This document shows, piece by piece, positions 24,354-32,902 of a stretch of 64,000 bases of DNA. Within the stretch, counting starts at the first letter, position 1. Each line of letters starts with the position of its first letter. The stretch lies in the NCBI GenBank assembly GCA_029210325.1, contig JARGPU010000001.1, forward strand, positions 258,126 through 322,125. Reading direction: 5' to 3'. A program made the position numbers and the translations under genes. The stretch comes from Alcanivoracaceae bacterium. Its GTDB lineage: Bacteria; Pseudomonadota; Gammaproteobacteria; Pseudomonadales; Alcanivoracaceae. Below the pieces are notes generated by a model. It was not told where the DNA came from, did not search any database, and saw nothing but the letters and a program-made list of their open reading frames with translations.

Positions 24354-25322
24354 ATGACAGACGAAGTTTCCCGCGACGAGTCCGCGGCTCAGAAAGAGTC
24401 ATTCTGGAAGCGGATGAAGGAAGGCCTGAGCAAGACCAACAAGGTGCTGGGCCAGGGCCTGGCTGACCTGCTGGTGGGCCGCAAGGAAATCGATGACGAG
24501 CTGTTCGAGGACATTGAAACCCAGCTACTGAGCGCTGACATCGGCGTTGAGGCCACCGATGTGATCGTTCAGGCGCTAACCGACAAGGTCGGTCGTGAGG
24601 AGCTGATGCATGCCGATGCCCTGTACGACGCCCTGAAAGATGAGCTGCGCAAACTGCTAGTGCCAGTGGACAAACCACTGGTAATCGATCGCAGCAAGAA
24701 GCCCTATGTAATCTTGATGGTCGGCGTCAACGGCGTCGGCAAGACCACCACCATCGGCAAGTTAGCGCGCCGCTTCCAGAGCGACGGGCTGTCAGTGATG
24801 CTGGCCGCCGGCGACACCTTCCGAGCGGCGGCGGTAGAACAGTTGCAGGTATGGGGTGAGCGCAATCATATCCCGGTGATCGCCCAGCAAAGCGGCGCCG
24901 ATTCCGCTTCGGTAATCTTTGACGGGGTACAGGCCGCCACCGCACGGGGCGTTGATGTGCTAATCGCGGATACCGCTGGCCGCCTGCACACCAAGTCCAA
25001 CCTAATGGAAGAACTGTCCAAGGTGGTGCGGGTAATGAAAAAGCTGATCCCGGATGCGCCCCATGAAGTGCTTCTGGTACTGGACGCCGGCACCGGTCAA
25101 AACGCCATCAATCAGGCAAAGGAATTTCGTAATGCGGTGGGCGTCACAGGCCTGGCCCTCACCAAGCTCGACGGCACCGCAAAAGGCGGGGTACTGTTTG
25201 CCTTGGCAAAAACCACCGGCCTGCCGATCCGCTTTATCGGTGTCGGCGAGAAGCTGGAAGACCTGCGGCCGTTTGAGGCTGAGGAATTTGTTCAAGCCCT
25301 GTTCGAGGACGTCACCGGGTGA
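24354..25322 (+). CDS. ftsY: Signal recognition particle receptor FtsY
   Basis: SRP receptor GTPase that docks ribosome-nascent chain complexes at the inner membrane. The 322 residues have a short N-terminal segment, the helical N domain and the G domain: GVNGVGKTTTIGKLA (about 124-138), AGDTFRAAA, DTAGRLHT, TKLDGTAKGG. Compared with E. coli FtsY (497) the acidic A domain is almost absent. Its stop overlaps the GTG start of ftsE (GTGA). Confidence 0.97.
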   Translation: MTDEVSRDESAAQKESFWKRMKEGLSKTNKVLGQGLADLLVGRKEIDDELFEDIETQLLSADIGVEATDVIVQALTDKVGREELMHADALYDALKDELRKLLVPVDKPLVIDRSKKPYVILMVGVNGVGKTTTIGKLARRFQSDGLSVMLAAGDTFRAAAVEQLQVWGERNHIPVIAQQSGADSASVIFDGVQAATARGVDVLIADTAGRLHTKSNLMEELSKVVRVMKKLIPDAPHEVLLVLDAGTGQNAINQAKEFRNAVGVTGLALTKLDGTAKGGVLFALAKTTGLPIRFIGVGEKLEDLRPFEAEEFVQALFEDVTG

Positions 25323-25999
25323 TTCATTTCGACAACGTCAGTAAACGCTACGCCAACGGTAAGGAGGCGCTTAGCAATGTATCGTTCCGTCTGCCGCCCG
25401 GTGAGCTGACGTTCCTGACCGGCCACTCCGGTGCCGGCAAGTCCACCCTGCTGAAACTGCTGATGATGATCGAGCGGCCGAGCAGCGGTGACATTATGGT
25501 CGATAGTGAAAATCTCAATCACCTTGGCACCCGTGACATTCCCTGGCTACGCCGCAAGATTGGCATGGTCCACCAGAGCCATCATCTGCTGTTTGATCGC
25601 ACGGTTTATGACAACGTGGCGCTGCCACTGATTATCGCCGGTTACAAGCCCGGTGATATCGGCAAGCGGGTGCGCGCTGCACTGGACAAGGTTGGCTTGC
25701 TGGACAAAGAGCGCCTTAATCCGATTACCCTGTCCGGTGGTGAACAACAGCGGGTCGGCATTGCCCGCGCCGTGGTTAATAAACCGCCATTGCTACTCGC
25801 CGACGAGCCCACCGGCAACCTTGATCCGCAACTGTCCGCCGAGATCATGGACCTGTTCGAAGAATTCGCCAGCGTCGGCGTATCGGTAATAGTTGCCACC
25901 CACGACTTGTCGCTGATTGCCCGCTACAACCACCGTCTTCTGACGCTGCGCGAAGGCGAGCTGATCACCGACCGCGAGGAGGATGGCGATGGCGCGTAA
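25319..25999 (+). CDS. ftsE: Cell-division ABC transporter ATPase FtsE
   Basis: ATPase partner of FtsX, which activates periplasmic cell-wall amidases at the septum. The 226 residues show Walker [10 protein letters not shown] (about 38-46), Q-loop MVHQSHHLL, signature [14 protein letters not shown] and Walker [17 protein letters not shown] start overlapping the ftsY stop; it overlaps ftsX at its 3' end. Confidence 0.97.
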
Positions 26000-26999
26000 T
26001 GCCACTCCAATGCGGCCGAAGACCCAGAAGCCCGCTAAACGTGCGGCAAGTGCTCGCCTGGCTAACACCACCTTGCGGGATCGCTTTGACGCCTGGCGCT
26101 TGCATCACCGGGATTCCGCCATCGACGCACTAAAGCGCATGCGCCAGAGTCTGGTAAGCACCGTGATGACTGTGCTGGTGATTGCCATCGCTCTGGCACT
26201 GCCCGCCGGTTTATCCGTGCTATTGGAAAATGCGCGATCGCTGACCCAAAACTGGGACGGCAACGTGCACCTCTCTGTGTTCCTCAGTAATGATGTCAGT
26301 GAAGCCAGCCAACGACGCATCGCCGAAGAGTGGCAGCAGCGCGATGACATTGATCGAGTTGAGGTGGTCACCCGCGAGCAGGCGTTGGCCGAATACAAGG
26401 AGCTATCCGGATTTGGAGAGGTGCTCGACGCACTGCCGGACAACCCGCTGCCGCCACTGATTATCGTCTACCCGAGCAGCAGTGATGCCGAGCAGCTAAC
26501 TCAACTGAAAGTGTCACTGGGCGATCAGCCCAATGTGGATCAAGCGGTACTGGATATCGAGTGGGTGCGCCGCCTGCATGCCATGCTTGCCGTCGGCGAG
26601 CGGGTAGTATCCGCCCTGATGCTGGCACTGGCGCTGGCCGTCGTTCTGGTGGTGGTAAATACCATCCGCCTTGCCATCGAAAACCGGCGCGAAGAAATTG
26701 TGGTAGTGAAAATTGTCGGCGGCACTGACGGTTTCGTTCGCCGCCCGTTTCTTTACACCGGCTTCTGGTTCGGCCTGTTCGGCGGCCTTGCGGCAGTAAT
26801 GCTCGTGCAGTCCACTTTGCTCTGGCTATCCGGGCCGGTGAACCGATTAAGCGCCCTGTATAGCAGTGAGTTCAATCTTAGCGGACTGGGCTGGGAAACC
26901 CTGCTGACCCTGCCGGTGTTTGCCGGCGTACTAGGGTTGATGGGGGCCTGGCTGGCAGTGTCACGGCATTTGAAGGATATTGAGCCACAGGCATTTTGA
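25989..26999 (+). CDS. ftsX: Cell-division protein FtsX
   Basis: Inner-membrane subunit of the FtsEX complex with four predicted transmembrane helices and a periplasmic loop (about residues 75-190). An N-terminal basic stretch precedes RQSLVSTVMTVLVIAIALALPAG; the C-terminal half has VVVNTIRLAIENRREEI typical of FtsX. I prefer ATG 25989 because GAGGAGG ends 6 bases before it; ATG 25983 directly abuts that site. rpoH, which normally follows ftsX in gammaproteobacteria, is not here; an accessory island follows. Confidence 0.95.
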   Translation: MARNATPMRPKTQKPAKRAASARLANTTLRDRFDAWRLHHRDSAIDALKRMRQSLVSTVMTVLVIAIALALPAGLSVLLENARSLTQNWDGNVHLSVFLSNDVSEASQRRIAEEWQQRDDIDRVEVVTREQALAEYKELSGFGEVLDALPDNPLPPLIIVYPSSSDAEQLTQLKVSLGDQPNVDQAVLDIEWVRRLHAMLAVGERVVSALMLALALAVVLVVVNTIRLAIENRREEIVVVKIVGGTDGFVRRPFLYTGFWFGLFGGLAAVMLVQSTLLWLSGPVNRLSALYSSEFNLSGLGWETLLTLPVFAGVLGLMGAWLAVSRHLKDIEPQAF

Positions 27000-27025
27000 T
27001 TAGCCATGAAAGTGGGGTTTGGGAC

Positions 27026-27346
27026 ATGCAGGAAGCCATCAAAAGACTGAGGCAGTTTCGCGATGCGCGAGATTGGAAGCAGTTTCATAATCCGAAGGAT
27101 CTCGCCTTAGCACTCAGCATTGAGGCATCCGAACTTCTTGAGATTTTTCTTTGGAAAAGCGCGGAAGATGCCGATCCGGGAAGAGTTAAGGAAGAGCTTG
27201 CTGACGTGCTAGCTTACGCTCTCCTACTGGCAGATGCCTACGAATTGGACCCGACAGAAATAGTCCTAAAAAAGATTGAGATCAATGAGAAGAAGTACCC
27301 AATTAGCAAATCCAGAGGCACTGCCAAAAAGTATACTGAGCTATGA
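27026..27346 (+). CDS. MazG-like nucleotide pyrophosphohydrolase
   Basis: Small all-helical NTP pyrophosphohydrolase of 106 residues. The Mg-binding acidic residues are present: Glu33 and Glu36 in LSIEASELLEIFLW and the ExxD pair Glu57/Asp60 in KEELADVLAYALLLAD. The C-terminal NEKKYPISKSRGTAKKY is typical of the short MazG-like group. Start ATG 27026 follows a GGG-rich stretch; a TTG overlapping the ftsX stop would add ten residues. Its stop overlaps the start of the large GIY-YIG/DUF2075/S24 gene (ATGA), so the two are translationally coupled and likely act together. Base composition is more A+T rich than the ftsX side. Likely role: hydrolysing or sensing a nucleotide as part of a defence module (inference). 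Confidence 0.88.
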   Translation: MQEAIKRLRQFRDARDWKQFHNPKDLALALSIEASELLEIFLWKSAEDADPGRVKEELADVLAYALLLADAYELDPTEIVLKKIEINEKKYPISKSRGTAKKYTEL

Positions 27347-29538
27347 GCCACGAACATTTAGTGGAGATCAATCAGTACATCTTTTCCCGAGAGCGTCTTA
27401 ATGATCTTCGACAGAACGCTTATGCCAGTGGTTGCTGGCCTCTAGTCTATTTGCTTAGCGACCAAAATGAGGGAAAAGCTTACGTTGGAGAAACTGCGGA
27501 TGCTCTTTCCCGATTGGGGACCCATCTAAACGATGATGCCAAGAGGTTGCTTACATCAGTTCACCTAATCACCAGTGAGCGCTTTAATAAATCTGCCACG
27601 CTGGATATAGAGTCAGCGCTGATAAAGTATATGGCGGCAGATGGGAAGTTTTCTCTTCTCAATGGAAATTTGGGCCTTTCTGACCACAACTACTATCAGA
27701 GGGAAGATCTCTACTCGGAGATTTTCAAAGCCATATGGGACCGGCTTCGCAGAAAAGGTATTGCGAAACATTCCATAGAATCCATTAGCAACTCAGATCT
27801 TTTCAAATACTCACCATACAAATCGCTCTCTGCCGATCAACGGCAGGGGCTTATTGGCATTATGTATGCATTGCTAGATGATAACGTAAAAAATCTTCTC
27901 GTTCAGGGTGGGGCAGGCACAGGAAAGTCCGTTTTGGCAATTTTTCTTTTTAAGCTCATGCACACCGATGATAAGGAAATCAGTTTCGCCGACTTCTCCG
28001 CAGAAGAAGATGAAGTCAGGGATCTTATAAAGCAGCTGAAAGAAAAGTTCCCGTCTCCAAGAATGTCACTTGTTGTGCCAATGACGTCCTTTAGAAACAC
28101 CCTAAAAAAGGCCTTCCGCAACATTGACGGATTAAGTGCCGACATGGTGATAGGACCTTCAGAGCTATCGGAGCGATCTTACGATATCGTTTTGGCTGAT
28201 GAAGCTCATCGTCTAAGAAGACGGGTAAACCTTGGCGCCTATTATGGCGCTTTTGACAAAACCTGTGCAAAGCTAGACTTTGATAAACATAGTTGTAGCG
28301 AGGTAGATTGGGTATGCAAGCAAGCTCGCAAATCCGTTTTCTTCTACGACCAAAGTCAATCCATCAAGCCATCAGATGCAGACGTGGCGGTTTTTGACAG
28401 CCTGAGAAGCGAGTCCTCCACAAAGACTCAAACCCTAGTATCCCAGTTCCGAGTTCAGGGCGGGAACTCCTATGTAAAATTTATCCACGCCATACTTCAC
28501 AATAAGACCAAGGAAAAAGTACTTTACACCTCAAAAAGTTATGAGTTCCTTCTTTTTGACTCAATCACGGAAATGGCAGAGTTTGTAAAAAACAAGAACG
28601 AAAGTGTAGGGCTTTCGCGGCTTGTCGCTGGTTACTCCTGGCCATGGATATCGAAAAATGATCCGAGCAAGTTCGACATCGACATTGATGGGGCTTTATT
28701 TCGCTGGAACAGCACAAACACAGACTGGATCAATAGGAAAGGCGCGGAGAACGAAGTCGGCTGTATTCACACCACTCAAGGATATGATCTCAACTATACA
28801 GGCGTAATCTTTGGCAATGAAATTAGGTTTGACAGGAATACAAAAGAAATTTTTATTGACGCAGAAAAATATTTCGACCGCCTCGGCAAGCAAAGCATCG
28901 AATCACCGGAACAATTAAGGAAGTATATTCTTAATATTTACAAGACCATCATGCTTCGAGGCATAAAGGGAACTTTCGTTTATGCTTGTGATAAGGATTT
29001 GCGAGACTATCTGAGAAATCACATACCAAGCTATAAAAGGCCCGGAGCAGACAGTCTGGAGCCGCAACCAATCCTTGTGCCATACCACAACGCAGTGCCC
29101 TATTATGATCTGAAGGCAGCAGCAGGGGACTTTAGCTCTCTTCAGAAGGTGGAGCAGTTTCAATGGATTGCTGTACCGAATGATGTGGAAGCCAGTAAAT
29201 CGCTGTTTGCATGTCAGGTTATAGGAGAGTCCATGAACCGGATTATTCCTAACGGTGCCATTTGCCTGTTCCGCATCGAACGAGGGGGTAGCCGCAATGG
29301 AAAGATTGTTCTTGTTGAACACAGCGACCTGATCGATCCTGACAGTGGCTCGCAATACACGGTAAAGGAGTATGCAAGCAACAAAGCAAGTGACGAGCTC
29401 GGCTGGCATCACCAAACTATACTCCTCAGGCCACGATCTTATGATGATAGCTTTCAAACGATAAGGCTTTCAGAGGATCAATCATCTCATTATCGAGTCA
29501 TTGCAGAGTTTGTTCGTGTGTTGGACCCATATGAGTAA
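27343..29538 (+). CDS. GIY-YIG nuclease - DUF2075 helicase - S24 peptidase fusion protein
   Basis: A 731-residue three-part protein. Residues 33-110 resemble a GIY-YIG nuclease: VYLLSD (35-40), AYVGET (46-51), Arg57, catalytic-type Glu90 in LDIESALIKYM, and LLNGN (105-109). Residues 160-560 are a DUF2075 (Schlafen-group-3-like) superfamily 1 helicase: Walker A GGAGTGKS (189-196), Walker B LADEAHR (284-290), FFYDQSQS (333-340), SQFR (367-370), HTTQGYDLNYTGVIFG (476-491), MLRGIKGTFVYACD (537-550). Residues 605-725 resemble a LexA/UmuD-like S24 peptidase: GESM with Ser630 and TVKEY with Lys675, with an Ala594-Gly595 candidate self-cleavage site. No transmembrane segment. Coupled to the MazG-like gene. 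Probably an anti-phage or DNA-damage effector (inference); the combination is one I cannot place in a named system. Confidence 0.85.
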   Translation: MSHEHLVEINQYIFSRERLNDLRQNAYASGCWPLVYLLSDQNEGKAYVGETADALSRLGTHLNDDAKRLLTSVHLITSERFNKSATLDIESALIKYMAADGKFSLLNGNLGLSDHNYYQREDLYSEIFKAIWDRLRRKGIAKHSIESISNSDLFKYSPYKSLSADQRQGLIGIMYALLDDNVKNLLVQGGAGTGKSVLAIFLFKLMHTDDKEISFADFSAEEDEVRDLIKQLKEKFPSPRMSLVVPMTSFRNTLKKAFRNIDGLSADMVIGPSELSERSYDIVLADEAHRLRRRVNLGAYYGAFDKTCAKLDFDKHSCSEVDWVCKQARKSVFFYDQSQSIKPSDADVAVFDSLRSESSTKTQTLVSQFRVQGGNSYVKFIHAILHNKTKEKVLYTSKSYEFLLFDSITEMAEFVKNKNESVGLSRLVAGYSWPWISKNDPSKFDIDIDGALFRWNSTNTDWINRKGAENEVGCIHTTQGYDLNYTGVIFGNEIRFDRNTKEIFIDAEKYFDRLGKQSIESPEQLRKYILNIYKTIMLRGIKGTFVYACDKDLRDYLRNHIPSYKRPGADSLEPQPILVPYHNAVPYYDLKAAAGDFSSLQKVEQFQWIAVPNDVEASKSLFACQVIGESMNRIIPNGAICLFRIERGGSRNGKIVLVEHSDLIDPDSGSQYTVKEYASNKASDELGWHHQTILLRPRSYDDSFQTIRLSEDQSSHYRVIAEFVRVLDPYE

Positions 29539-29563
29539 TTGGCAAGCTTGAAATCATCCAGTA

Positions 29564-29848
29564 TCAGGCCGCCAGCTCCACTTTAACCGTACGCCCTATC
29601 CGGGCCTCCAGCATGATCAACATCTCTAGACTGAATTTGTCCCATTTGCCACGCACCAGATCGGAGACACGAGACTGGGCGATTCCAAGCCGTTTGGCTG
29701 CCTCTGTCTGAGTCAGACGTTCCGTTTCGATATATAAGCGAAGGTCATTCATCAAGTTAGCTCGCATCTGCAGCACCGCAGCTTCGGCTGGCTCAAAGCC
29801 CAAATCGAGGAAAATGTTATCGCTTGCCTTTTTGCTTTGCTTTTTCAC
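29564..29848 (-). CDS. HigA-like XRE antitoxin
   Basis: A 94-residue protein with an XRE-type helix-turn-helix: LTQTEAAKRLGIAQSRVSDLVRGKW (about 45-69). It matches HigA-type antitoxins paired with Gp49/HigB-like toxins. The start is GTG 29848, within the last 32 bases of the toxin gene, so translation follows the toxin. It is expected to neutralise the toxin and repress the shared promoter at about 30170-30198. Converges on the GIY-YIG/helicase gene with only 25 bases between them. Confidence 0.88.
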   Translation of the reverse strand: MKKQSKKASDNIFLDLGFEPAEAAVLQMRANLMNDLRLYIETERLTQTEAAKRLGIAQSRVSDLVRGKWDKFSLEMLIMLEARIGRTVKVELAA

Positions 29849-30161
29849 GCGCTTCTACCTCTTTGTATCGCTCCCGAGCCAGTGCAATATCAGGCTGGCG
29901 GGTTTTCTGTGTTTTCTTCTCGAACGCATGCAATACGTAAATGGCGGCCCTGAACGTTGCCACATAGATAACGCGCCATTCTCCCTGTCGATGGATTCGG
30001 ATCTCCGAGACACCAGTACCTATGCCTTTCATCGGCTTCCAATCCGAGGGCGCAAGACCCATCTGAACCGCACTTAGCTGAAACCCGGCGTCGCGCCGAG
30101 CATCATCCGGAAAGCATCTCAAGTCATCCTGACTCGTGCCAACGAACTCCAAGTCTTTCAT
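29817..30161 (-). CDS. HigB/Gp49-like RelE-superfamily toxin
   Basis: A 114-residue toxin-like protein of the phage Gp49 / HigB group, which cleave mRNA on the ribosome. Supporting features are FVGTSQDDLRCFPDDARRDAG near the start, WKPMKGIGTGVSEIRI, the core EWRVIYVATF, and IYVLHAFEKKTQKTRQPDI followed by a basic tail. The toxin-first order, with an XRE antitoxin downstream, is characteristic of higBA. A strong promoter places the likely transcription start within a few bases of the ATG, suggesting a leaderless or nearly leaderless message. Confidence 0.88.
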   Translation of the reverse strand: MKDLEFVGTSQDDLRCFPDDARRDAGFQLSAVQMGLAPSDWKPMKGIGTGVSEIRIHRQGEWRVIYVATFRAAIYVLHAFEKKTQKTRQPDIALARERYKEVEAREKAKQKGKR

Positions 30162-30169
30162 GTGGCACC

Positions 30170-30198
30170 AATATATAAGTTTAATGATAATTTATCAA
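30170..30198 (-). promoter_or_regulatory. higBA promoter with overlapping palindromic operator
   Basis: On the leftward strand a -35 box TTGATA (30193-30198) and a -10 box TATATT (30170-30175) are separated by exactly 17 bases. The spacer overlaps a 13-base palindrome TGATAA-T-TTATCA (30185-30197), a natural operator for the HigA repressor. The -10 box ends only 8 bases before the toxin ATG. Confidence 0.75.
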
Positions 30199-30298
30199 TG
30201 TTCTTTGATATAGGCTGTTATGGCCGGACGATGGGATGATTACTTATTGAAGGGATTAGATCGGTCAGCTGGAGAGGAGATTCATGTAAGCGTCGACG

Positions 30299-30979
30299 TC
30301 AAAGTAACCAAGCCAGCCCACCGCGCACCGCTTCCCGGGCATTCTCGGTAATCACATCGCCGTGGGCCACAATCACTTTCTCGAACGGCCACTCAAACAA
30401 CTGCTCAATACTCTGACGCGCCCTGCGCCGATTCAGATACACCATGCGTAGCAGCGGGTGCCAACCCACTTTGCCGAGGAGGCCGCCGGCGCGAAGGTAC
30501 CAGCGGGTCGGGGCGTGCTCGCAGTGACTGAAATTCTCCACCAGGTCGCAACTGATCAGGGTCTTGCTGGCAGGATGGTAGAACAGGGTTTCATGCAGCA
30601 TGGAACCTTCCACGGTGAGCGGCAATAACTGCCCCCGCCAGGCCGGGTGGGGAACATCTGACAGCACCGCATCAAACTTCAAGTCCTTACGCTTGCGCTG
30701 CAGTTTTTCCGGGCCATGAAGCTGCGCTTCCGGGAAGGCCGCACAGGTATCAGCGGCATACATATGATGGAACAGGTTTGGGCAGATGATATGGCGCACC
30801 GGGCCTATGGCTTCGATCTCCTGACGCAATGCTTCCGAAACCGGCACCGGGGAGTGCAGAACCAGCTCTCCAGAAGACAGCCGGATAACCGTCATCCTTG
30901 TGCCAAGATGCAGGCCGATAAAGCGGTGCGGGATCGTGGTGACCCAAAGATCGGCAGCAACAGGATGCAACTCAGCCAT
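30299..30979 (-). CDS. DUF4336 (metallo-beta-lactamase-like) protein
   Basis: A 226-residue protein resembling the DUF4336 family, distant relatives of the metallo-beta-lactamase fold. Typical segments are TVIRLSSGELVLHSPVPV, HIICPNLFHHMYA, LFYHPASKTLISCDLVENF and the late VIVAHGDVITE. The classic HxHxDH metal motif is absent, as in this family, so activity is unknown. Last gene of a leftward unit starting at the acyl-CoA dehydrogenase; 14 bases from the preceding gene. Confidence 0.8.
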   Translation of the reverse strand: MAELHPVAADLWVTTIPHRFIGLHLGTRMTVIRLSSGELVLHSPVPVSEALRQEIEAIGPVRHIICPNLFHHMYAADTCAAFPEAQLHGPEKLQRKRKDLKFDAVLSDVPHPAWRGQLLPLTVEGSMLHETLFYHPASKTLISCDLVENFSHCEHAPTRWYLRAGGLLGKVGWHPLLRMVYLNRRRARQSIEQLFEWPFEKVIVAHGDVITENAREAVRGGLAWLL

Positions 30980-30993
30980 TAAATTTTCTCCGG

Positions 30994-31578
30994 TTATGAA
31001 AGCGCTTTTTCTATCATCGGTAGCCGATCCTGACCGAAGAACATCTCGCCATCTATATATACCGTCGGCGCACCAAAAGCGCCGCGCGCTACTGCTTCTT
31101 CAGTACCAGCTTTCAGCTTCTCTTTCACCGCTTCGTCACTGCATTGCGCCAGCAGAGCCTGCGCGTCGAAACCAGCTTTCTGTAACACACTGGCTACCAC
31201 CTCCGGTTGGCCCATGTTCTGCTCTTCAACCCAGATCGCGGTAAAAACCGTATTCAGATAATCGTCAAAGCGAGGGTCATCTTGAAGTGCAACGGCGCCG
31301 CGCATCAGCGTCATGGTGTTGATCGGGAAGAACGGATTGAATTTCATTGGCACTCCATAGCTTTTCGCATAGCGCTGGAAGTCGATCAACATGTAGCGTC
31401 CCTTAGCCGGGTTCATGGCTGGCGACTGATTGCCGGTGGCCTTGAACACCGCGCCAAGCAACATTGGCCGCCACACCAGTTTGGCATTGTGCTTTGCTGC
31501 CAACCCCGGCAGCTGAGTCCAGGCGAGGTAGGTGGCCGGACTGCCAAAATCGAAGAAGCATTCAATCTGCTTGCTCAT
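30994..31578 (-). CDS. 2-hydroxychromene-2-carboxylate isomerase / DSBA-like protein
   Basis: A 194-residue thioredoxin-like protein of the HCCA isomerase / kappa-GST group: ECFFDFGSPATYLAWTQLP at the start, the helical insert PMKFNPFFPINTMTLMRGA, and the closing GAFGAPTVYIDGEMFFGQDRLPMIEKAL. The serine in FDFGSP replaces a CxxC cysteine, favouring glutathione-dependent isomerase chemistry over disulfide exchange. It lies 16 bases after the chromate-type transporter gene. The substrate is unknown; the operon suggests aromatic or acyl compound catabolism (inference). Confidence 0.88.
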   Translation of the reverse strand: MSKQIECFFDFGSPATYLAWTQLPGLAAKHNAKLVWRPMLLGAVFKATGNQSPAMNPAKGRYMLIDFQRYAKSYGVPMKFNPFFPINTMTLMRGAVALQDDPRFDDYLNTVFTAIWVEEQNMGQPEVVASVLQKAGFDAQALLAQCSDEAVKEKLKAGTEEAVARGAFGAPTVYIDGEMFFGQDRLPMIEKALS

Positions 31579-31594
31579 AGGAAACTTACCTCAT

Positions 31595-32902
31595 CTATCC
31601 CGGAAAAAGATCTAACCCCGCACCCACAGCCACGGTAATTATTAACACCCGGCCAATACCCCAGTTAAGCTTGAGCAACGCCAATAAAGCGCCGGCAAAC
31701 AAGCTCAATGAAGCAAGATCGATTGATGCTGGCATTGGCAAGCTCAAACCAACACCTGCGAACTCTATCAAACGGTGTTCAGCAAATAACACATGGCTAG
31801 CGAACCACAATGCCAGACTGGCAATCACGCCAACTACAGCAGCCGTAATGCCACGCAGCGCTCCGGCAATCGCCATATTATGGCGTAGGCGCTCGATGTG
31901 CGGTGCGCCGGCAAAAACAAAAACAAAACACGGTACAAATGCTGCCCAGGTCGTCACTAACGAGCCTAGCACAGCAGCCACCGGCGGCGAGAACGGCGCC
32001 GCATCGCGAAATGCCGCCATAAAGCCGACAAACTGCACTACCTGAATCAGCGGCCCCGGCGTGCTTTCCGCCATGCCAAGCCCGTCGAGCATTTCATCGG
32101 GAAGAAGCCACTGGTAGACATCAACCGCCTGCTGAGCAATGTAGGCCAATACCGAATAGGCGCCACCAAAAGTGACCACGGCGACCTTGCTGAAGAACAA
32201 CGCCTCTGTGACCAGAACATGGTCACCGCCCAGTGTTGGCAGCATCAAAATCAGCGGCAACAACCAGATAACGAAGCCGATCAGCAGTACACGCGCGGTA
32301 CCAGTCATACTGACCGGCTGCGGGCGCCAGCTGTCGGCGGGCAGCAGGGAATCACCAAGCCAGGCCGGGCGCTGCTTCGCCCATAAATAGCCGGCGAACG
32401 CTGCAGCGGAAATAATTAATGGAAACGGCACATCAAAAATTGCTATCGAAATAAAGGAAACTGCGCCGGTAGCAGCCAGTGGTCTTGTCATCAGCGCTTT
32501 GCTGGCTATCTTCTTGACGGCAAGCAGCACCAACGCCAAGACCGCCGCCTTCAAGCCAAAAAATAGCGCTGCTACCAGTGAAACATCGAGCAAGTAGGCA
32601 TACAAAAACGACAGCGCAAGAATGGCAAAAAACCCGGGCAGAATAAACAGAATGCCGGCGATCAAGCCGCCGCGCACACCGTGCATCAACCAACCAAGAT
32701 AAGTAGCCAGCTGCTGTGCTTCGGGGCCGGGCAGCAGCATGCAGAAGTTAAGCGCATGCATAAAGCGCGGTTCATCGACCCAACGCTTTTCTTCAACAAC
32801 AATACGGTGCATCACCGCAATCTGTGCAGCAGGACCACCAAAGGAGAGCAGGGCGACACGCACCCAGACAACAATAGCTTGCTGTAGCGTTGGACTATTC
32901 AT
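31595..32902 (-). CDS. chrA: Chromate ion transporter (CHR) family protein
   Basis: Polytopic inner-membrane protein of about 435 residues with two homologous CHR halves. The first has ALLSFGGPAAQIAVMHRIVVEEKRWV and LPGPEAQQLATYLGW; the second has FSKVAVVTFGGAYSVLAYIAQQAVD and GMAESTPGPLIQVVQFVGFMAA. Long-chain ChrA members expel chromate, although many homologues have other or unknown anions. I choose ATG 32902 (MNSPTLQQA); a longer frame would run through a REP-like repeat. Part of the acd-gntR leftward unit. Confidence 0.9.
   Translation of the reverse strand: MNSPTLQQAIVVWVRVALLSFGGPAAQIAVMHRIVVEEKRWVDEPRFMHALNFCMLLPGPEAQQLATYLGWLMHGVRGGLIAGILFILPGFFAILALSFLYAYLLDVSLVAALFFGLKAAVLALVLLAVKKIASKALMTRPLAATGAVSFISIAIFDVPFPLIISAAAFAGYLWAKQRPAWLGDSLLPADSWRPQPVSMTGTARVLLIGFVIWLLPLILMLPTLGGDHVLVTEALFFSKVAVVTFGGAYSVLAYIAQQAVDVYQWLLPDEMLDGLGMAESTPGPLIQVVQFVGFMAAFRDAAPFSPPVAAVLGSLVTTWAAFVPCFVFVFAGAPHIERLRHNMAIAGALRGITAAVVGVIASLALWFASHVLFAEHRLIEFAGVGLSLPMPASIDLASLSLFAGALLALLKLNWGIGRVLIITVAVGAGLDLFPG

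Follow-up and report, generated by a model that had tools for sequence, protein, structure and literature searches.

Two adjoining genes in a 64,000-nucleotide stretch of contig JARGPU010000001.1 from an Alcanivoracaceae bacterium (the whole stretch is termed the window, and positions count from its first letter) form a candidate defence operon that may contain a built-in, damage-triggered OFF switch working by self-cleavage, a reading held tentatively and rated a little short of an even chance. The upstream gene encodes a MazG-like nucleotide pyrophosphohydrolase and the downstream gene an effector in which a GIY-YIG nuclease, a Schlafen-type helicase (SLFN-g3, also known as DUF2075) and a LexA-type S24 module are joined. 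The argument turns on the S24 tail. Judged by sequence, it is a portable LexA-type module common to unrelated restriction and defence enzymes, a property that went unnoticed in the first-pass annotation of this DNA, and its conserved residues and predicted fold make it look able to cut itself. Below, loci and contigs carry L numbers, genomes G numbers, and alignments and profiles A numbers.

The module occupies residues 576-731 of the 731-residue effector (29068..29535, + strand) and was recognised by a Pfam match to Peptidase_S24 (E 5.9e-6, 26.4 bits against a cut-off of 23.3), an AlphaFold2 model and structural matches. From sequence and alignments, self-cleavage is predicted at the bond Ala594-Gly595 (29122..29127, +), with Ser630 in the motif GESM (29230..29232, +) and Lys675 in YTVK (29365..29367, +) as the predicted catalytic residues. 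The effector-borne modules, the window's own included, retain the Ala-Gly bond, the GxSM serine and the [ST][VI]K lysine in 31/31 cases. This count is not independent of the search, as 12 of the 31 built profile A2, which found many of the others. Left out of the 31 were L028 and L019 (fragments without the cleavage region, the L019 match also containing a stop), L190 and repeat fetches; L018, the same gene as L060, is counted among them as a fragment. The same positions (A19-G20, S55 and K100) are among the nine invariant columns of alignment A7, whose 43 rows comprise the window, L001-L003, L091 and 38 of the 53 S24 domains from viral contigs (L091 apart). The AlphaFold2 model of residues 576-731 has a predicted local distance difference test score (pLDDT) of 79 and a predicted template modelling score of 0.76. 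In VIA-align searches with this model, LexA and lambda repressor structures, four of them RecA complexes, make up the best 17 rows (Z 12.1-13.9), among them lambda repressor bound to RecA (8gmu_A; Z 13.9, root-mean-square deviation 2.4 over 121 residues) and LexA bound to RecA (8gms_A; Z 13.0, 2.5 over 119 residues). UmuD follows at Z 10.4-10.8 and signal peptidases reach up to 7.5; Foldseek gives 9e-6 to 3k2z. The tail thus shares fold, Ala-Gly bond and Ser-Lys pair with the S24 family of LexA, UmuD and lambda CI; unlike these proteins, the window's effector has no DNA-binding domain, its cargo is a nuclease-helicase, and its response to RecA is a prediction.

A profile search with A1 returned proteins that have just the S24 part in common with the effector. 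The module is found on the C-terminus of the type I restriction subunit HsdR in L058 (Pfam and PADLOC), and L059 and L091 appear to be C-terminal HsdR fusions alike, by eye only and without a domain scan. In an EcoEI-type HsdR (L079, 6101-8875) it lies near the N-terminus. Residues 235-563 of L079 are matched at 75% identity by a homologue on a cyanobacterial plasmid (L189). Between ...TEV and RGRADYVL, L079 has a stretch of 181 residues with the S24 module in it, and the plasmid protein one of 8; this homologue without the module indicates that the L079 copy was inserted within the HSDR_N nuclease domain. The L189 gene is itself shortened and stands beside an IS630 transposase. Further bearers are the Druantia protein DruE (L078, 1981 amino acids; PADLOC DruE3 1e-117) and an HNH_4 protein (L056), and a contig-end fragment bearing the module was also seen (L060, 13926-14441). 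Its distribution is sparse (5/398 and 18/293 genomes). In a tree, the effector modules stand apart from five phage repressors (support 88/94, not starred). A single starred group unites the copies from HsdR, DruE and the fragments, and the GIY-YIG and PD-(D/E)XK-like branches are weakly resolved. Given this resolution, spread among partners is claimed here and a number of transfers is not. Viral contigs gave no relative in scans with A1 or A4. The A2 scan of these contigs gave 57 loci, and the only large protein passing the S24 profile at 1e-4 was the hsdR-like L091, the remaining S24 open reading frames (ORFs; 117-259 amino acids) being phage repressor-like by eye. With the L027 module as query, one plasmid record and zero phage records were found. 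It is plausible, though to be held with slightly more reserve than the OFF switch in the window, that a self-cleaving LexA-type domain serves as a general, RecA-triggered control module of immunity, fitted to MazG-linked nuclease-helicases, HsdR, DruE and HNH enzymes. If this is true, restriction and other defence enzymes would bear their own SOS sensor, the SOS response would govern immunity through the proteins themselves with no need of transcription, and the S24 module would be a sequence tag for finding more defence effectors.

The gene pair itself has the layout described in the first-pass annotation. The mazG-like gene (27026..27346, +; 106 amino acids) starts with ATG at 27026, in agreement with the starts of its relatives (an alternative TTG lies upstream at 26996), and its stop at 27346 overlaps by ATGA the start of the effector gene (27343..29538, +), whose domains were assigned from the ORF and Pfam. 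The source genome holds one copy of the pair. Domain scans of the MazG-like protein, begun from codon 2, match the MazG-like family PF12643 (E 6e-19, 68.5 bits against a curated cut-off of 27); together with phmmer matches to PDB sequences (the pyrophosphatase 4qgp, 5e-24; dCTP pyrophosphatase 1, 4e-20) and the metal ligands, this marks the protein as DCTPP1-like. The acidic metal site already suspected there, ExxE...ExxD, is invariant in 15/15 aligned copies (15 of the 26 that are intact). By analogy with its family, the substrate would be a nucleoside triphosphate, (d)NTP, probably dCTP or a modified form. In the effector, the helicase domain (residues 184-550; 27892..28992, +) matches SLFN-g3_helicase PF09848 at E 1.8e-63 (215 bits against a cut-off of 24), and the GIY-YIG domain (residues 34-94; 27442..27624, +) reaches 22.6 bits (E 1.3e-4), exactly its Pfam cut-off of 22.6, which is borderline for a single sequence. 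Residues R57 and E90 inside the domain and N107 just beyond it, which we take to be the catalytic Arg, Glu and Asn of GIY-YIG nucleases, are invariant in alignment A3 (15 of 19 loci). All three domains reported in the effector were thus found again with their motifs intact, GIY-YIG and S24 included. Among the 13 Pfam families that match the effector at E <=1, AlbA_2, the core of eukaryotic-type Schlafen proteins, is absent, and in NCBIfam the mazG product has no match and the effector none above cut-off.

The mazG-effector pair is supported as a recurring unit. Eight loci from genome contigs, three in Gammaproteobacteria with S24 and five in Bacteroidota without it, all have mazG upstream (8/8), as do 19/19 close GIY-YIG loci with the window included; the gap between the genes is -4 in 16 of these 19 and -1 in L071, L007 has a 136-residue ORF between them, and the remaining locus, L063, has a split mazG. 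Since the pair recurs in both groups of bacteria, mostly with the 4-base overlap, chance is excluded in practice. Another 11 loci have the same helicase with a PD-(D/E)XK-like domain where GIY-YIG would stand (ten with S24, L057 without); the domain is named from its motif, Pfam showing no nuclease match in L054, and D80 and E98-x-K100 are invariant in alignment A4 (10 of 11 loci). Intact mazG is present in 8/11 of these loci, L057 has a 34-residue remnant, and L073 and L075 have none. In L055 and L190 mazG lies downstream of the effector. The gene of L190, a Halomonas plasmid (7122-9613), has S24 in a different frame from the helicase; this frame break, a mazG split over two frames in L063 (3630-3948) and the mazG remnant beside the S24-less effector of L057 (5753-5908) are either decay or sequencing errors. 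Plasmid and phage records supplied six GIY-YIG helicases of more distant relationship; these carry no S24 (0/6), and mazG adjoins two of the six, L192 (Lactiplantibacillus plantarum) and L194 (a gut contig). A PF09848 search of 274 genomes served as a control, which is one of specificity and not of discovery, and gave 14 SLFN-g3 genes (two G015 pieces counted as one). Within the flank examined (0.7-1.5 kb beyond the gene), mazG stands beside 5/5 genes of the GIY-YIG or PD type (one a 34-residue remnant) versus 0/9 others (Fisher's exact test, 1 in 2002; 0.005 when only intact mazG is counted, 4/5; 1 in 715 without the window, 4/4 versus 0/9), and these nine lack S24 as well as mazG.

As proposed here, the DCTPP1-like enzyme would hydrolyse (d)NTP, probably dCTP or modified dCTP, and thereby starve or clean the pool, the Schlafen-type helicase would load onto DNA that is foreign or being replicated, and this DNA would be cut by the GIY-YIG domain. 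The LexA-type tail would sense the filament of RecA on single-stranded DNA and cut at Ala594-Gly595 by means of Ser630 and Lys675. The nuclease-helicase would then end in the new C-terminus -LKAAA and be removed by ClpXP, sparing the host chromosome during the SOS response, which would amount to a self-contained restriction alleviation; the same module would act on HsdR, DruE and HNH enzymes. An OFF switch, through an exposed ClpXP-type degron, is more likely than an ON switch. The predicted end is close to the -RVAA that a cut in the host's LexA sequence GRVAAG is predicted to leave, and to the -ALAA of the host ssrA tag, which ends -YALAA. According to PMC5742171, ClpXP C-degrons lie buried next to the autocleavage sites of LexA and LexA-like proteins. 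Moreover, a cut in L079 would split the nuclease domain. The reverse direction, in which the S24 tail would keep the nuclease-helicase inactive until RecA filaments formed in infection led to cleavage and an active effector for abortive defence, is unlikely. It would use the same conserved site and Ser-Lys dyad, and 30/31 modules are C-terminal, so that cleavage would free the entire effector; the cleavage of UmuD, which activates UmuD', is a precedent for an activating cut. Activation by mitomycin C in AbpAB (PMC10732053) and by DNA damage in Hachiman (PMC12278908) points the same way, although that of AbpAB is described in PMC10732053 as independent of RecA and LexA. The freed end would, however, resemble a degron, and cleavage of L079 would divide the nuclease domain.

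Several observations weigh against the OFF switch and the premises on which it is built. The end -AAA is similar, not identical, to known degrons, and the C-terminal fusions fit an ON switch equally well. The window has no excess of LexA boxes (17 matches with <=1 mismatch versus 19.7 by chance), and LexA-box control of the operon was rejected on this ground. Residues 18-29 of the S24 model, beside the cleavage site, have pLDDT <50; the full-length effector model is poor (pLDDT 57), the S24-only model being used in its place; and profile A2 gives only weak LexA matches among PDB sequences (best 0.15). S24 is absent from L004-L008 (Bacteroidota), from L057 and from 6/6 distant GIY-YIG helicases, and mazG is absent from two PD-type loci and from 4/6 of the distant helicases, so that each part is dispensable somewhere. 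All five GIY-YIG and PD-type genes of the control, the window's own included, had already been found by the earlier profile search. Many loci are flanked by housekeeping genes (by eye) and some by defence or toxin-antitoxin (TA) genes; the earlier expectation that the pair recurs in defence islands thus held for the recurrence, while the setting proved mixed. When 18 loci were compared with control windows on the same contigs, PADLOC families at 1e-8 numbered 128 for 106 neighbour ORFs versus 43 for 108 control ORFs, an excess that is suggestive only, as the count includes overlapping models and names few members, and the control windows hit strongly too (DpdF 1e-255 and RtcR 6e-113, taken for housekeeping relatives).

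The pair is likely to serve phage defence, to judge from the sharing of its module with restriction and Druantia enzymes, from the TA pair in the window's island and from some of its neighbours. L077 (7469-16416) is a dense defence island, in which a PD-type effector with mazG is followed by HamA (Pfam 6e-51), a DEAD helicase, a gene that is NUDIX-like by eye and an SLFN-g3 helicase matching PDC-S41; the DEAD helicase beside HamA is probably HamB of Hachiman, although the PADLOC list does not name the member. The pair in L004 (7458-12635) has immediately downstream of it DUF4007, what by eye is a large ATPase-like gene, and a PAPS-reductase-like gene, a setting reminiscent of Dnd-type loci. 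Other neighbours include AbiEi and TIR genes at L055 and, among TA genes chosen by eye and without a control, YhaV/PrlF at L062, TacA1/GNAT at L066 and a ParE-like gene at L063. Alternatively, the pair might be a mobile module for nucleotide sanitation and DNA repair under SOS control, since MazG and DCTPP1 enzymes clean dNTP pools and many loci lie among genes that are housekeeping-like by eye. This is improbable in view of the sparse, accessory distribution, the TA pair in the window's island, the sharing of the module with HsdR (whose genes lie, by eye, in hsdMS operons) and DruE, and the genes just described beside L077 (HamA of Hachiman) and L004 (DUF4007 and the PAPS-reductase-like gene). 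Less probable still is that S24 acts as a dimerisation or docking domain that is not cleaved in the cell and keeps its site for folding, as LexA-type domains dimerise and relatives without S24 exist (L004-L008), but the retention of the scissile Ala-Gly and of the Ser-Lys pair in 31/31 copies, on five kinds of partner, exceeds what dimerisation needs.

In L192 (309-5704), L007 (4977-8316) and L008 (9165-12489), mazG and its GIY-YIG helicase have a PLD-ResIII-DUF3427 helicase and a gene of NUDIX type nearby. The PLD-ResIII-DUF3427 helicases of the Bacillota and Bacteroidota loci are 40% identical, and that of L194 (3396-6509) is more distant (31%); together these genes possibly make up a larger recurring system. 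In L074 (5586-7299), a umuDC-like operon (by eye) lies directly upstream of mazG and a PD-type effector, adding a second LexA-type gene there.

Comparison with PADLOC-DB 2.0.0 bears out the earlier failure to place this exact architecture in a named defence system, as mazG matches no family and the effector gives partial matches only (best 2.8e-10). The best is to Nhi (PDLC02372; nuclease-helicase immunity) and covers effector helicase residues 162-420 (37 bits, model positions 183-375 of 470); the GIY-YIG part is unmatched, the match includes neither MazG nor S24, and it is not full-length. AbiO also matches the helicase in part (3.5e-9), and PDC-S14 the GIY-YIG part (3.4e-8). PDC-S41 fits the SLFN-g3 helicase of L077 (14443-16416; 2.8e-284), a protein that, unlike the window's effector, has no S24. 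Hachiman (HamAB) and AbpAB likewise combine a nuclease and a helicase and respond to damage-like states (PMC12278908, PMC10732053). They belong to other families, however; neither of the two genes matches HamA or HamB in Pfam or PADLOC, and the HamA seen at L077 is a neighbouring gene of its own. In the alleviation of EcoKI restriction by ClpXP, a defence nuclease is also turned down when host DNA is at risk (PMC4231737); that study was unable to identify the degron of EcoKI, whereas in the window the LexA-type module would supply one. MazG is among the predicted, unvalidated defence domains of DefensePredictor (PMC13092281), and the words GIY-YIG, S24, Schlafen and LexA are absent from the main text of that paper. 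A full-text literature search, with most subscription papers beyond its reach, found no description of an operon of mazG with a nuclease-Schlafen helicase, nor of a LexA-type module on defence enzymes. The parts are of known kinds; if the bold reading of a portable module is true, the principle of control would be categorically new and would offer a simple, testable protein switch to explain how cells with damaged DNA keep their own nucleases off the chromosome. An operon of MazG and a nuclease-helicase would also join the candidate defence systems, linking nucleotide-pool enzymes to DNA-cutting effectors.

In the window, the pair lies in an accessory island of 3.3 kb (27009..30305), delimited by an empty site (blastn) and by base composition, with ftsX on one side and the next conserved gene on the other. 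Besides mazG and the effector, the island contains a TA pair on the - strand, an HTH_37 antitoxin (29564..29848; PF13744, 3.2e-18) and a Gp49-like (DUF891) toxin of the RelE/ParE type (29817..30161; PF05973, 1.9e-25). Its G+C content is 46.1% versus 55.6% in the remaining window, in keeping with the A+T-rich segment beside a TA pair noted at first. The same-genus genome G369 has 26 bp (contig L081) where the window has 27009-30305, and window positions 24483-27008 (92.3% identity) and 30306-31762 (88.7%) align there as neighbouring stretches; ftsX is 97% identical between the two. The island could be a gain in this genome or a loss in the relative. Comparison of the two end regions found no repeats in common, direct or inverted, in the range of 9 to 14 bases, and the window contains no tRNA genes. 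That the pair might be a fixed housekeeping neighbour of ftsX, an alternative raised in the first-pass annotation, was rejected: ftsX was detected in 9/10 relatives searched, island sequence stood beside it in 0/9 (blastn, which a strongly diverged copy might escape), and a protein search of the same relatives gave strong matches only in G385 and G390, on contigs other than that of ftsX, with a weak partial match in G369, again on a different contig. The mazG-effector pair looks mobile. In L002, L067 and L068, the pair adjoins glyQ-glyS-like genes (by eye), a possible insertion hotspot.

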